DNA of 64,000 nucleotides from Chthoniobacteraceae bacterium. GTDB lineage: Bacteria > Verrucomicrobiota > Verrucomicrobiia > Chthoniobacterales > Chthoniobacteraceae. A program made the translations under genes and the position numbers. Shown piece by piece: positions 51,795-56,341 of this stretch. How positions within the stretch are numbered: position 1 is the stretch's first letter; the number at the start of each line of letters is the position of its first letter. The stretch is taken from assembly GCA_028293625.1 (NCBI GenBank), contig JAQGOL010000029.1:248001-312000 (forward strand). The letters run 5' to 3'. The notes beneath the pieces were generated by a model. That model was not told the origin of the DNA and did not search any database. It saw only the letters and a program-made list of their open reading frames with translations.

Positions 51795-52961
51795 TCAGGG
51801 AGTGGCCGGCAGGCTTGGGCCGGGCACCAGGATCGGCCGATCGAGATAGAATGGATCGGCGACTTCCTGCCGATACGCCTCGAGTGCTTCGGGGCTGGAG
51901 TTGACCCGCAGGTTGGAATATTTGCCGGCGTTGTCGGCCAGATCGTCCTTTCCGTTCTGCCAGCGTTCATGCCAGTAAACAATCGCCTTCAAGCGCGAGA
52001 ATTTCGGGGTTTTCATCAGCCTTAATCCGTCGCGGAACCAATCGGCTTTGCTGCCAAGGTGGGGCAATTCCGCAACGCCCCATTCACAGAGCATTATTGG
52101 CTTATCCGGATCAATCAGGGTCAGTTCCGTGTAAGGCCAGTCGAGCAGCGGGAAAAAAGGCGCCCATTCCTTGTCACCCGGAAATTGCGACCCATAGAGG
52201 CTTAATCCGAGCCAGTCGACGTACTCGGAACCCGGATAATATTCCTCAGCCAGATTCCAGCCTTCCTGAGGATCCGAATAGACCATCAAATGGAGCACCC
52301 ATTGGATATTCCTGGCGCCCCGGGCACGCACCCGGTCGACCACATGACGCCACGCTTTTTTGAAAGTCTCCGGCCCTTGATAATGATAAACCTCCGGCTT
52401 GCCATCAACGGGGGGATCGATGGAAACCACCTTCTCGCCGCCATAAAGCACGCCGCTCCATGGGAACCACGAGCCGTTCATTTCATTGGCAAACGAGACG
52501 ATCATCGGCTGCCCGAATTCGCGGGCTTTATCGGCCCACATATCCAGGTAAGCGTCGTGTTCGCCTGCAATGATGCTGGTTAGCGAATACTTATCAATGC
52601 CGCGGCTCTCCACATACGGCTTGTCCCATGGCGACCAGAAGATGAGCGGAATGGAACCGTGCCGGGAAATCAGGCGCACATTCGCTTCGGGAAACGTCTG
52701 TTCGCCCCAGTAACTTGAGCTCGCGACAATGGCCTGATGTTTTTCCACCATCCGCTCAAACTTCTCGATGGCTTCAAGCGTGACGCTCTCCTCCTTGTCT
52801 CCAAAGTCGATGTAAGCACCGGTGTAAATCCCGTGGGCCGGCACCGAGAGCCGGGGATTGGCGATCGCGGCTTGCAGACCCGGCGCCGGTTGCCGGCCAC
52901 AGGATGCCAGCGAAAAAAACAGAAAAAGTGCCAGGGCCGCTCGGGTAAAACGTGAATTCAT
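51795..52961 (-). CDS. GH26-like glycoside hydrolase lipoprotein
   Basis: 388 residues. Lipoprotein signal with lipobox LASC (Cys near 21). The barrel carries GH26-type features: [18 protein letters not shown], the acid/base glutamate in [16 protein letters not shown] (about 155-170), [14 protein letters not shown], and the nucleophile glutamate in [11 protein letters not shown] near 300. Related proteins are endo-mannanases and EPS-modifying enzymes. It is almost fused to the upstream GH18-CE4-GT2 gene (stop TAA, two bases, ATG). So it probably acts on the polymer that protein makes, either trimming or releasing it; that is inference. Confidence 0.88.
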
Positions 52962-52963
52962 GG

Positions 52964-55900
52964 TTACTCCACTTTCCGCATTTCAAGTCCTGAACTCGGC
53001 ACGGCGCCGGTGCGTTCAAGTTTGCCCCAGCCAACCAACGCGCCTTTGAGCGCACGCAGAATCGACTTCCAGATGACCCATGCCAGAAGGGGACGGTAAA
53101 CCAGCCGCATCGGTATAATAAGAAAAGCCTGCCGCAACCGTTCTCCCTCCATCGCGCAGGCCAGGGTCGCCAGGAAAATGTCGAGGGCGAAGAAGATGAC
53201 GATGTAATACCAGATGGCGCCGGCGTGCCCAAGAAAGACGGAGTAAAAGAGGATGAAATCAACGAGCGGGGTCAGCGCCACGAGCGCGATTTGGAAAAAC
53301 CAGACACTCGGCAGACTAAACCATCCAAGCCCCGGAAAACGGCTGCTAAAAAGCAGGTCGCCATGTTTCCAGAGGCATTGCATGGTGCCGAATGCCCAGC
53401 GAAACCGTTGCTTGGCGAGCGTCGCAAACGTTTCGGGCGCCTCGGTCCAGGCGACCGCATCGGGGGCATATTCGATACGGTAACCGAGCCGGTGCAGCGT
53501 CAGTGTCAGGTCGGTGTCCTCGGCCAATGTATCGTGCGAAAAACCGCCGGCCGCTTCGATCGCACTTTTTCGAAACGCACTGATGGCGCCGGGCACGACC
53601 GTGATGCAATTAAGCGCCGTGTAAGCGCGCCGATCGAGGTTGAATCCGCAGATGTATTCAAGGCTCTGGCAGCGTGCAAGGAAGGTGCGTAGATTACCGA
53701 CACGCGCATGGCCGCTGACCGCGCCGACCAAGGGATTTTCAAAGGCCGCCATCAAAGCGCCGAGCGTCCCGGGTTCAAAGAGGGTGTCCGCGTCCAAAAA
53801 AACGATCATGGCATGGCGGGCTTCGGCCAGGCCATGGCGAAGCGCGCCCGACTTTCCCGAGTTGGACTGGCGCAGCAATCGGACGCGCGGCTCGGTATCG
53901 GCAAGGAGCTGAATTTGCGCTGCCGTGTCGTCTTTGGAACCGTCATCAACCACCAGAATTTCAAAGTCGCCGCGGTAATCGGTATCAAGGACTGAACGCA
54001 CGGTCTTTTGAATCAACTTCCCTTCGTTGTATGCGGCAATAATCACACTGAGCGGCGGCTCTTTGCCGATCGCGGCGCCGGGCGCCCTGGCATGATGCCG
54101 GTGCGCGAGCCACGCCACCACCAGTGTGCGGATCACCACGAGCGCCGTGGCGAAAATCATGAATGACCAGAAAAACTCCACGATGCCGTGCCAGATCCGA
54201 AATCCGGTGCCCGCGACCATTCGTTCGACCGGTTGCGTCGTGTTGCTTAAAGGCATCAGTTCGTCGCGCGGGATGTGAAGCAATTCGCCCAGGGAGACAA
54301 TCCGATCGCCCCGGGTTTGGAGGTATTCAATGATTTTGGGCAGCGCCTCCACCGTCTCGGAGCGATCGCCGCCCGCGTCGTGCAGCAGGACGATATTTCC
54401 TTCACTGCGCAGTTCCCGCACCCGTTCAAGAATGACATCGACGCCCGGTTGCGACCAATCCTGGGGATCGATTTTTTCAAGCACCAGCGTGTAATTGAGT
54501 TCGTCCTGGGCCAACGCGAGCGGCGCCAGCTCCGCCAGATTGGCCGGAGTGGAATCGGCGTTGTAAGGAGGACGAAAGAGCGTGGTGGAACGTCCTGTAA
54601 TACTTTCGATTACACGCTGGGTCATGTTGAGCTCCAGGCGCATCCGGAACTCCGACATCAATGCCAGATTGGAGTGCGAATACGTATGGTTGCCGATCTC
54701 GTGGCCTTCCCTCACAATCCGCTCCACAAGTCCGGGATAATCCTCGGCATTTTGGCCAATCACAAAAAAGCATGCCTTGAGGCCGTTTGCCTTGAGGATA
54801 TCGAGGATCTTTGGTGTCCATTCCGGGTCGGGCCCGTCATCAAAAGTAATCGCCACCTCGTGTTCGCTACCGGCGCCCTGATGATAAAGAATCGGGTAGG
54901 TTGGGAAATCGACGTATTTGGCGCGCAGCAACCCGCGGGCATCGAGGGTAACGAGGCGACTGCCATCGTCGCGGTTTTTATTGACGCTGACGATTTCGCC
55001 CCGGCCAACATGCGTAATGGTGTCAGTGGCGTGCAGGACGGAGAGCGCTTTGAGCGTCGCTTCGGGAAGCGCGCCGCGCGGTTCAAGCACGTCCCAGATT
55101 TGCGGATCCTCATTGCCGAGCCGGTTGATGCCGATGCCGCCAAGCTTTGCTCCGCGAACAAGCTTAAGGCTGTTGTAAAAAGAGATGGCGTCGAGAAATA
55201 CGATCGTGTGTTCGTCCTCGCCTTCACTGAAGGAAAACTGGCCGTTGTAACCAGGCGCCGCGACGTCGACAAACGCGCCATCCCGGTCCGCGCCCGCGTA
55301 GCTTGCACGGCTCATCGCGTCCTTAAAGCTGATCGTTTCCGCTTTTTTGAGGGTCCGATTCCAATCGTAGGAATAAGCGCCCAGCGCGCCGATCCATTGT
55401 TCGGGATCGCCGTAATCGGCCAGAACGGCAAGCCACCCTTCAATCCACTCCTGGGCGGCGATCGGTCCGGGCGCATCGCTGCCGGAGTTCTCATCGTGCA
55501 GCACGGCGACGAATCGGTCGACAAATTCAGCCAGGGCATCGATGTCGAACGTGTTGAAATCGTCCCCGAGGGCGACCATGAACCAGAGCTCCTTGCCCGC
55601 TGTGTTCAAGGCGTCGGTCATGCTTTTTAGGAGCTCGGTCAGTTTATCGCGGGAGGCGGGATCGACCTGCTCCCAGTTGACAATGACGCCGCCCGCCTTG
55701 CTCTGCACGACGTGGGCGACCAGTTCATTGATGAATGCTTCGCGTTTATCGGCCGGCCCATTCGCGAGGTTCTCCACCGCTTCTGCCTGCCATTCATCAT
55801 GCAAAAGATTATCCAGAATCGGCATGACGGTAAGGCCATGGGCGGCGGCAAACGCCGCCAGTTTTGTGTCCGGCTCGTAAATGAGGCGTCCTTCTGTCTC

Positions 55901-56341
55901 AACCAGTGAGAACGATTCCGGGGCGATATGGGTTAAAGCGCCGGCGTGTTCCTCCAGGGAAGCAAAACTGTTGGAATCCCAGTCGACATAAAATCCAAGC
56001 CGGATCTTGCCGTTGGTCTGTTTGGGTTTGCGCGGTTGCGCACGCACCCGGGCGAGCCGTTCCTGGGCGGCCTGCGATTCGCCGTAATACTTCTGCCAGT
56101 TCATGCCGTTCGGATCGTTGCTTTCCTTTTCGGCCGTGGCTTTGAGTGTCCCTCGCATATCGCGCAGGGCACGCGGCAGCTTGAGCTCGGGCCGCACCAC
56201 GATCGACCAGATAAACCAGATCAATGCCGCGCAACAGAGCACCGTCCAGATCCCGATCACCCGGCGCAGACGCGGCCAGCGAAGCCCTTGTGGATCAAGA
56301 AAAACAAAACGTCGGGGCGGGAGCGATGGCGATTCGGGCAT
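52964..56341 (-). CDS. Trifunctional GH18-like / polysaccharide deacetylase / processive GT2 membrane protein
   Basis: 1125 residues. A membrane helix near residues 28-50 is followed by a GH18-type barrel (about 110-465; GFYVDWDSNSFASLEEH, GVIVNWEQVD where DxxDxDxE is expected, QIWDVLEP). Then a CE4 NodB deacetylase (about 505-690; TFDDGPDPEWTP, IGNHTYSHSN, RPPYNADST, IVLLHDAGGDRS). After another membrane helix comes GT2 (about 765-1010; VIIAAYNEG, VVDDGS, FLDADT, AEDTDLT, QRFRW), then C-terminal membrane helices. The QRFRW and D,D,D signature shows a processive transferase. It likely builds, deacetylates and cuts a beta-linked amino-sugar exopolysaccharide. It is preceded on the same strand by tatD (83 bp) and followed by the GH26-like gene. 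Confidence 0.9.
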   Translation of the reverse strand: MPESPSLPPRRFVFLDPQGLRWPRLRRVIGIWTVLCCAALIWFIWSIVVRPELKLPRALRDMRGTLKATAEKESNDPNGMNWQKYYGESQAAQERLARVRAQPRKPKQTNGKIRLGFYVDWDSNSFASLEEHAGALTHIAPESFSLVETEGRLIYEPDTKLAAFAAAHGLTVMPILDNLLHDEWQAEAVENLANGPADKREAFINELVAHVVQSKAGGVIVNWEQVDPASRDKLTELLKSMTDALNTAGKELWFMVALGDDFNTFDIDALAEFVDRFVAVLHDENSGSDAPGPIAAQEWIEGWLAVLADYGDPEQWIGALGAYSYDWNRTLKKAETISFKDAMSRASYAGADRDGAFVDVAAPGYNGQFSFSEGEDEHTIVFLDAISFYNSLKLVRGAKLGGIGINRLGNEDPQIWDVLEPRGALPEATLKALSVLHATDTITHVGRGEIVSVNKNRDDGSRLVTLDARGLLRAKYVDFPTYPILYHQGAGSEHEVAITFDDGPDPEWTPKILDILKANGLKACFFVIGQNAEDYPGLVERIVREGHEIGNHTYSHSNLALMSEFRMRLELNMTQRVIESITGRSTTLFRPPYNADSTPANLAELAPLALAQDELNYTLVLEKIDPQDWSQPGVDVILERVRELRSEGNIVLLHDAGGDRSETVEALPKIIEYLQTRGDRIVSLGELLHIPRDELMPLSNTTQPVERMVAGTGFRIWHGIVEFFWSFMIFATALVVIRTLVVAWLAHRHHARAPGAAIGKEPPLSVIIAAYNEGKLIQKTVRSVLDTDYRGDFEILVVDDGSKDDTAAQIQLLADTEPRVRLLRQSNSGKSGALRHGLAEARHAMIVFLDADTLFEPGTLGALMAAFENPLVGAVSGHARVGNLRTFLARCQSLEYICGFNLDRRAYTALNCITVVPGAISAFRKSAIEAAGGFSHDTLAEDTDLTLTLHRLGYRIEYAPDAVAWTEAPETFATLAKQRFRWAFGTMQCLWKHGDLLFSSRFPGLGWFSLPSVWFFQIALVALTPLVDFILFYSVFLGHAGAIWYYIVIFFALDIFLATLACAMEGERLRQAFLIIPMRLVYRPLLAWVIWKSILRALKGALVGWGKLERTGAVPSSGLEMRKVE

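Follow-up and report, generated by a model that had tools for sequence, protein, structure and literature searches.

A GH18-CE4-GT2 fusion protein and a GH26 lipoprotein form a candidate two-gene exopolysaccharide unit in a Chthoniobacteraceae bacterium

Two adjacent genes on the reverse strand of the window (the whole 64,000-nucleotide stretch of DNA that was analyzed) encode a large membrane protein with three enzyme-type domains, hereafter the fusion, and a lipoprotein of glycoside hydrolase family 26 (GH26). Their features are as follows.

52964..56341, minus strand: GH18-CE4-GT2 trifunctional membrane protein (open reading frame with ATG start, 1125 aa)
56195..56251, minus strand: predicted N-terminal transmembrane helix, residues 31-49 (hydropathy)
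55067..56020, minus strand: GH18-type barrel, residues about 108-425 (weak Pfam match, profile search, AlphaFold model, fold matches)
55670..55678, minus strand: degenerate catalytic DxE motif of the GH18 barrel, N222-W-E224, with Asn in place of Asp (alignment; in the model, E224 directly follows strand beta-4)
54272..54880, minus strand: CE4/NodB deacetylase domain, residues about 488-690 (Pfam and motif residues)
54107..54163, minus strand: predicted transmembrane helix, residues 727-745 (hydropathy)
53342..54064, minus strand: processive GT2 domain, residues about 760-1000 (Pfam, NCBIfam, motifs)
53072..53290, minus strand: C-terminal transmembrane helices, residues 1018-1090 (hydropathy)
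52962..52963, minus strand: two-base gap between the stop codon of the fusion and the ATG of the GH26 gene (DNA read)
51795..52961, minus strand: GH26 lipoprotein (open reading frame with ATG start, 388 aa)
52899..52961, minus strand: lipoprotein signal peptide ending in the lipobox L-A-S-C21 (sequence)
52482..52484, minus strand: GH26 acid/base Glu160 (alignment with CtLic26A)
52083..52085, minus strand: GH26 nucleophile Glu293 (alignment with CtLic26A)

A sequence-only reading of this DNA had proposed that the GH18, CE4, and GT2 domains share one membrane protein; the open reading frame, Pfam, the profile search, and the structural model confirm this, and with all three domains on one polypeptide the protein falls in the trifunctional family. 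The CE4 domain (PF01522, 1.5e-37, residues 491-595) and the GT2 domain (PF13641, 1.9e-35, residues 762-985) are matched by Pfam; the Pfam match of the GH18 part with the single sequence (PF00704, 2.5e-4) scores 21.2 bits, below the curated cut-off of 29.6. We uphold this weak assignment because a profile search matches the GH18 part to the chitinase 5jh8 (6e-47) as well as to YdhD/SleL, and because its AlphaFold model is confident (pLDDT 92) and finds GH18 enzymes as its top fold matches in the PDB; by both fold and sequence profile, therefore, the barrel belongs to GH18. The top NCBIfam match of the GT2 domain is PgaC_IcaA (TIGR03937), with 199.7 bits against a curated cut-off of 422.3 that is not reached; PgaC is the nearest curated equivalog. 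Three helices lie near the C-terminus by hydropathy, and, because one transmembrane helix precedes and one follows the GH18-CE4 part, the GH18 and CE4 domains are predicted to be periplasmic, that is, outside the inner membrane, with the GT2 domain in the cytoplasm. An antisense frame across the gene (54275-55630, plus strand, 451 aa) has no Pfam match and was put down to the coding sequence on the opposite strand.

The junction between the two genes reads GAG TAA CC ATG AAT, that is, stop, two bases, start, just as the sequence-only reading had it; the lipobox and a Pfam match to GH26 (PF02156, 44.5 bits with a cut-off of 20.2) likewise agree with its description of the second product as a GH26-like lipoprotein. 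From this spacing we infer that the two genes are translationally coupled. The GH26 protein matches the lichenase CtLic26A in sequence (3e-21), in profile (2e-53), and in fold. With the Pfam score above the gathering threshold and both catalytic glutamates present, it is a member of GH26; among its homologues the Glu160 column is Glu in 36 of 36, the Glu293 column is Glu in all 35 that reach the position, and the lipobox column is Cys in 28 of 36.

The surroundings of the pair consist of housekeeping or unrelated genes: a TatD gene upstream, with ThuA, Band 7, and PQQ proteins farther upstream, and nuoB, nuoC, a nucleoside phosphorylase, ApbA/PanE, and an LTA-synthase-like sulfatase downstream. 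TatD is also upstream in several relatives, and Udaeobacter-type genomes share a block of housekeeping-type genes; the chromosomal neighbors, considered as functional partners, were judged to reflect synteny, not function. Some of these proteins have features of their own. The TatD protein (window:56425-57282) carries an inserted stretch of ~35 residues after residue 99; two ThuA genes lie at window:57314-59092; a single protein at window:60624-63650 joins a ThuA domain, a PQQ dehydrogenase propeller, and a cytochrome c domain; and the protein at window:46713-48725 is a membrane-bound sulfatase of LTA-synthase/phosphoglycerol-transferase type that may also work on an envelope polymer. A search for export components, which the sequence-only reading had suggested, found none in the surroundings of the pair in the window and none conserved beside the pairs of its relatives. 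The genome does encode four Wza-type Poly_export proteins elsewhere, unlinked to the pair; in the same genome nothing scores over the cut-off for the PgaA porin (weak matches only, as in most control genomes), and GH153 (PF14883) is absent, with E. coli as the positive control. With neither PgaA over the cut-off nor GH153 in the genome, the pair is not a rearranged PgaABCD system.

The GH18-CE4-GT2 fusion is a widespread and known architecture, not a new one. A scan of named genomes gave at least 596 candidate fusion stretches, and the best 80 of these, the loci that we examined for taxonomy, span Verrucomicrobiota, Alphaproteobacteria, Bacillota, Bacteroidota, Acidobacteriota, Cyanobacteria, Gemmatimonadota, and others, so that the suggestion that such a fusion is unusual does not hold. 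Sphingomonas, Caulobacter, and Bacillus are among the matches listed; the near relatives of the window fusion among the best 80 loci include Spartobacteria and Udaeobacter records, which makes a Chthoniobacterales-type verrucomicrobial host likely; and homologues in many phyla are 33-60% identical over most of their length. CDD has a model for proteins of this kind, GH18_trifunctional (cd06549). The literature that we searched, with most subscription journals outside it, yielded no characterized homologue of the full architecture. The closest relative of the window protein (L076:7168-10746, genome G018) carries insertions of ~14, ~21, and ~36 residues, located in its GH18 part, ahead of CE4, and within GT2. 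Another hydrolase-synthase fusion, an 852-aa protein with a GH2-type barrel and a GT2 domain (L097:7062-9620), lies directly upstream of one GH18-CE4-GT2 fusion.

What distinguishes the window's lineage is the GH26 gene. Among 38 genomes, comprising the window's own and its relatives of the same order, 18 contain a full fusion and exactly the same 18 contain a close GH26 homologue; the remaining 20, including three of the same genus, contain neither. In a phylum-wide sample the two genes likewise occur in the same 7 genomes. Across all loci read, 32 fusion genes are followed directly by GH26 on the same strand, with the fusion first, and 16 of these 32 adjacent pairs have a start candidate at -4 (ATGA-type, that is, a 4-base overlap). 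Apart from GH26, no neighbor is shared throughout the clade in these loci, and no conserved neighbor of the fusion was found in the loci read outside it. The compact two-gene unit proposed from the sequence is thereby supported, with its coupling conserved in relatives, if not everywhere: the genes are linked in most genomes and unlinked in a few. In six Udaeobacter-type genomes an adjacent GH26 is absent or the contig leaves no room for one, and in five of the six GH26 is on another contig amid other surroundings; in G314, too, the two genes are on different contigs. GH26 paralogues without an adjoining fusion also exist.

In a 98-fusion tree computed from the CE4 and GT2 domains only, leaving out the GH18 part, all of the GH26-bearing rows form one clade (SH-aLRT 99), with one gain of GH26; it is made up of Chthoniobacterales-type Verrucomicrobiota and five Thermodesulfobacteriota-type MAGs, and in the loci read GH26 lies beside the fusion in this clade only. 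Thus, the partnership of fusion and GH26 arose once, and the pair was probably passed between phyla. The five MAGs (L089, L091, L093, L094, and L158; Thermodesulfobacteriota/Desulfobulbus-type) have the same pair inside an otherwise verrucomicrobial clade. In G026 the pair occurs twice in tandem, fusion-GH26-fusion-GH26 (L073:5374-14487). Near the GH26 genes that stand apart from the fusion lies a secreted protein of ~720 aa whose only Pfam match is an F5/8 type C domain (L167:7912-10092, L168:1293-3485, L169:3590-5875, L170:3891-5882, and L174:1482-3623), and in G023 such a protein directly follows GH26; it may be a further enzyme of the pathway.

The active sites of the unit differ in how well they are kept. 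In CE4, D501, D502, H552, and H556 and the motif Arg, Asp-Trp, and His are intact, and the tested residues are invariant in 98 of 98 rows; in GT2, DAD 850-852, ED 941-942, and QxxRW 978-982 are intact, and the DxD, ED, and QxxRW motifs are invariant in the 98 fusions apart from one truncated row. The GH18 barrel of the window protein keeps Glu224, but the position of Asp222 is Asn, as it is in three other rows, so that the DxE motif of active chitinase-type GH18 enzymes is NxE here. Within the clade the catalytic Glu is replaced by Gln, Asn, or Gly in 13 of 38 rows (first count) and kept in 25; fusions outside the clade almost always keep DxE, and the Glu is absent in only 3 of 60 outside rows, among them L096, in fact a truncated member of the clade. 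On a single quickly built tree, with outside rows picked by their similarity to the clade, parsimony counts about nine changes of this Glu inside the clade vs one outside, an excess with a binomial p of 4e-4 given that the clade makes up 12.0 of the tree length of 35.4 (about a third). The barrel itself is retained, with a mean pairwise identity of 47% in the clade and 35% outside. Because DxE is NxE in the window and Glu has been lost repeatedly in the clade, the window GH18 is probably not a full hydrolase; the "hydrolase-like module" of the sequence-only reading thus stands as to fold and probably falls as to full activity. Since the GH18 Glu decays while the barrel is kept and the GH26 Glu pair is conserved, we read this as a replacement, in which GH18 may have become a binding or guiding module while GH26 took over the cutting. 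The lineage-specific coupled GH26 and the decay of the GH18 active site are undescribed in the literature searched, again with most subscription journals outside it, and look new.

Our main reading, to which we assign a probability of roughly 55%, is that the two genes together encode the machinery for a GlcNAc-type exopolysaccharide that is deacetylated in part, with the GH26 lipoprotein as the hydrolase of the polymer. In its favor we count the co-occurrence and adjacency of the two genes, the single gain of GH26, the excess of GH18 Glu changes in the clade, the near-invariant catalytic residues of CE4, GT2, and GH26, and the analogies with MatB and with the GH153 of PgaB described below. 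The presence of CE4 and of a GT2 nearest to PgaC is the reason for proposing a GlcNAc-type polymer that is deacetylated as it emerges. With its intact motifs and predicted topology, the cytoplasmic GT2 would polymerize UDP-GlcNAc or a similar amino sugar and thread the chain through its own membrane helices; the CE4 domain of the same polypeptide would then strip N-acetyl groups off the emerging chain. The adjoining GH18 barrel, its catalysis waning in the lineage and its fold kept, may hold or guide the chain, and cutting of the chain, deacetylated or mixed, would fall to the coupled GH26 lipoprotein, acting either in the periplasm or at the outer membrane, a role that would correspond to that of the GH153 domain of PgaB, BcsZ, or PslG elsewhere. 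Several observations count against this reading: the PgaC score does not reach half of its cut-off and no exporter is nearby; 25 of 38 clade members, and with Glu224 the window protein, retain the GH18 Glu, so catalytic loss is not universal; and the nearest solved GH26 is a lichenase. To our knowledge, the known GH26 enzymes act on mannan, beta-1,3-xylan, or 1,3-1,4-glucan, and none on amino-sugar polymers.

These last points are the ones on which the main competing explanation draws. If the fusion alone makes a GlcNAc polymer, GH26 could act on a different glycan, such as a mannan or mixed-linkage glucan of external origin or made by a second synthase, and the coupling would reflect no more than joint regulation of surface glycans; the likeness to CtLic26A, the neutral glycans that known GH26 enzymes use, the genomes in which the genes are apart, and the GH26 paralogues without an adjoining fusion are all consistent with this. 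It leaves the perfect co-occurrence in 38 genomes, the 4-base overlaps, and the repeated loss of GH18 catalysis in the GH26-bearing clade poorly accommodated, and we consider it unlikely. The GlcNAc-type deacetylase and the glucanase-type GH26 could also be squared by a chain that mixes beta-glucan and amino-sugar units, in which GH26 would cut the neutral stretches and CE4 would work on the GlcNAc units; the GT2 score below the PgaC cut-off fits such a polymer, but the unit has a single GT2, and a heteropolymer from one GT2 domain is uncommon, which makes this quite improbable. Lower still do we place a window GH18 that is a working endo-hydrolase to which GH26 adds a second cut: E224 is present, and Glu is kept in 25 of 38 clade members and 57 of 60 fusions outside, but in DxE the window protein, like three other rows, has Asn at position 222 instead of Asp, and Glu has been lost about nine times in the clade.

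Returning to the GH26 lipoprotein as the hydrolase of the fusion's own polymer, we offer a more specific version tentatively, at rather less than even odds: GH26 may have been recruited once, in the ancestor of the clade, as a dedicated hydrolase of an amino-sugar exopolysaccharide, and the GH18 domain, so relieved, would have lost catalysis many times and become a chain-binding module. If true, this would add a new class of substrates to GH26 and show clearly how one hydrolase can take the place of another inside a synthase. The role of the hydrolase that usually accompanies a synthase-dependent polysaccharide is debated; in this lineage the synthase seems to have been kept and the hydrolase family exchanged, with the old hydrolase domain decaying across species. 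The clade would thus offer a natural experiment on the purpose of the hydrolase, a GH26 that is a candidate for activity on amino sugars, and a unit of two genes, compact enough to be reconstructed.

Among known systems, the trifunctional GH18-CE4-GT2 proteins have the same three domains in one chain as the window protein; those outside the clade have no GH26 neighbor and almost always keep DxE, whereas the window pair has GH26 and NxE. CtLic26A, the GH26 lichenase of Clostridium thermocellum, shares the GH26 fold and both aligned catalytic glutamates with the window GH26, to which it is about 27% identical; it is secreted as a cellulosomal enzyme and is not known to be a lipoprotein or to be paired with a synthase. 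E. coli PgaABCD resembles the unit in its PgaC-type GT2, its CE4 deacetylase, and a hydrolase that acts on the deacetylated chain, and differs in that the window genome has no PgaA above the cut-off and no GH153, its hydrolases are GH18-like and GH26, and its GT2 scores below the PgaC cut-off; the GH153 of PgaB cuts PNAG only once it is deacetylated (PMC5933820). The CE4-GT2 part of the architecture, at least, has been characterized, in Streptomyces MatB, a fusion that makes PNAG with an intracellular GT2 and an extracellular CE4 joined by a transmembrane segment (PMC5972031). Compared by this published description, the window fusion has the same order of extracytoplasmic CE4, transmembrane helix, and cytoplasmic GT2 in one chain, judged from domain order and hydropathy; MatB comes from a Gram-positive bacterium, has no GH18 described, and is partnered not by GH26 but by MatA, a protein without a known domain. 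Gram-negative fusions of GT and deacetylase without pgaA have been described as well: in the sections of PMC7112194 drawn on here, PgaB clades with N-terminal GT fusions lack pgaA and pgaD, and the authors propose other modes of export. By that description these clades share with the window fusion a GT-deacetylase fusion without pgaA, and differ in that the same sections mention no GH18 or GH26. Finally, BcsZ (GH8, cellulose) and PslG (Psl) differ from the window pair in GH family, polymer, and export parts; they are named as endo-hydrolases of polysaccharide synthesis systems (PMC5933820), and in belonging to such a system they resemble the role proposed here for the GH26 lipoprotein.
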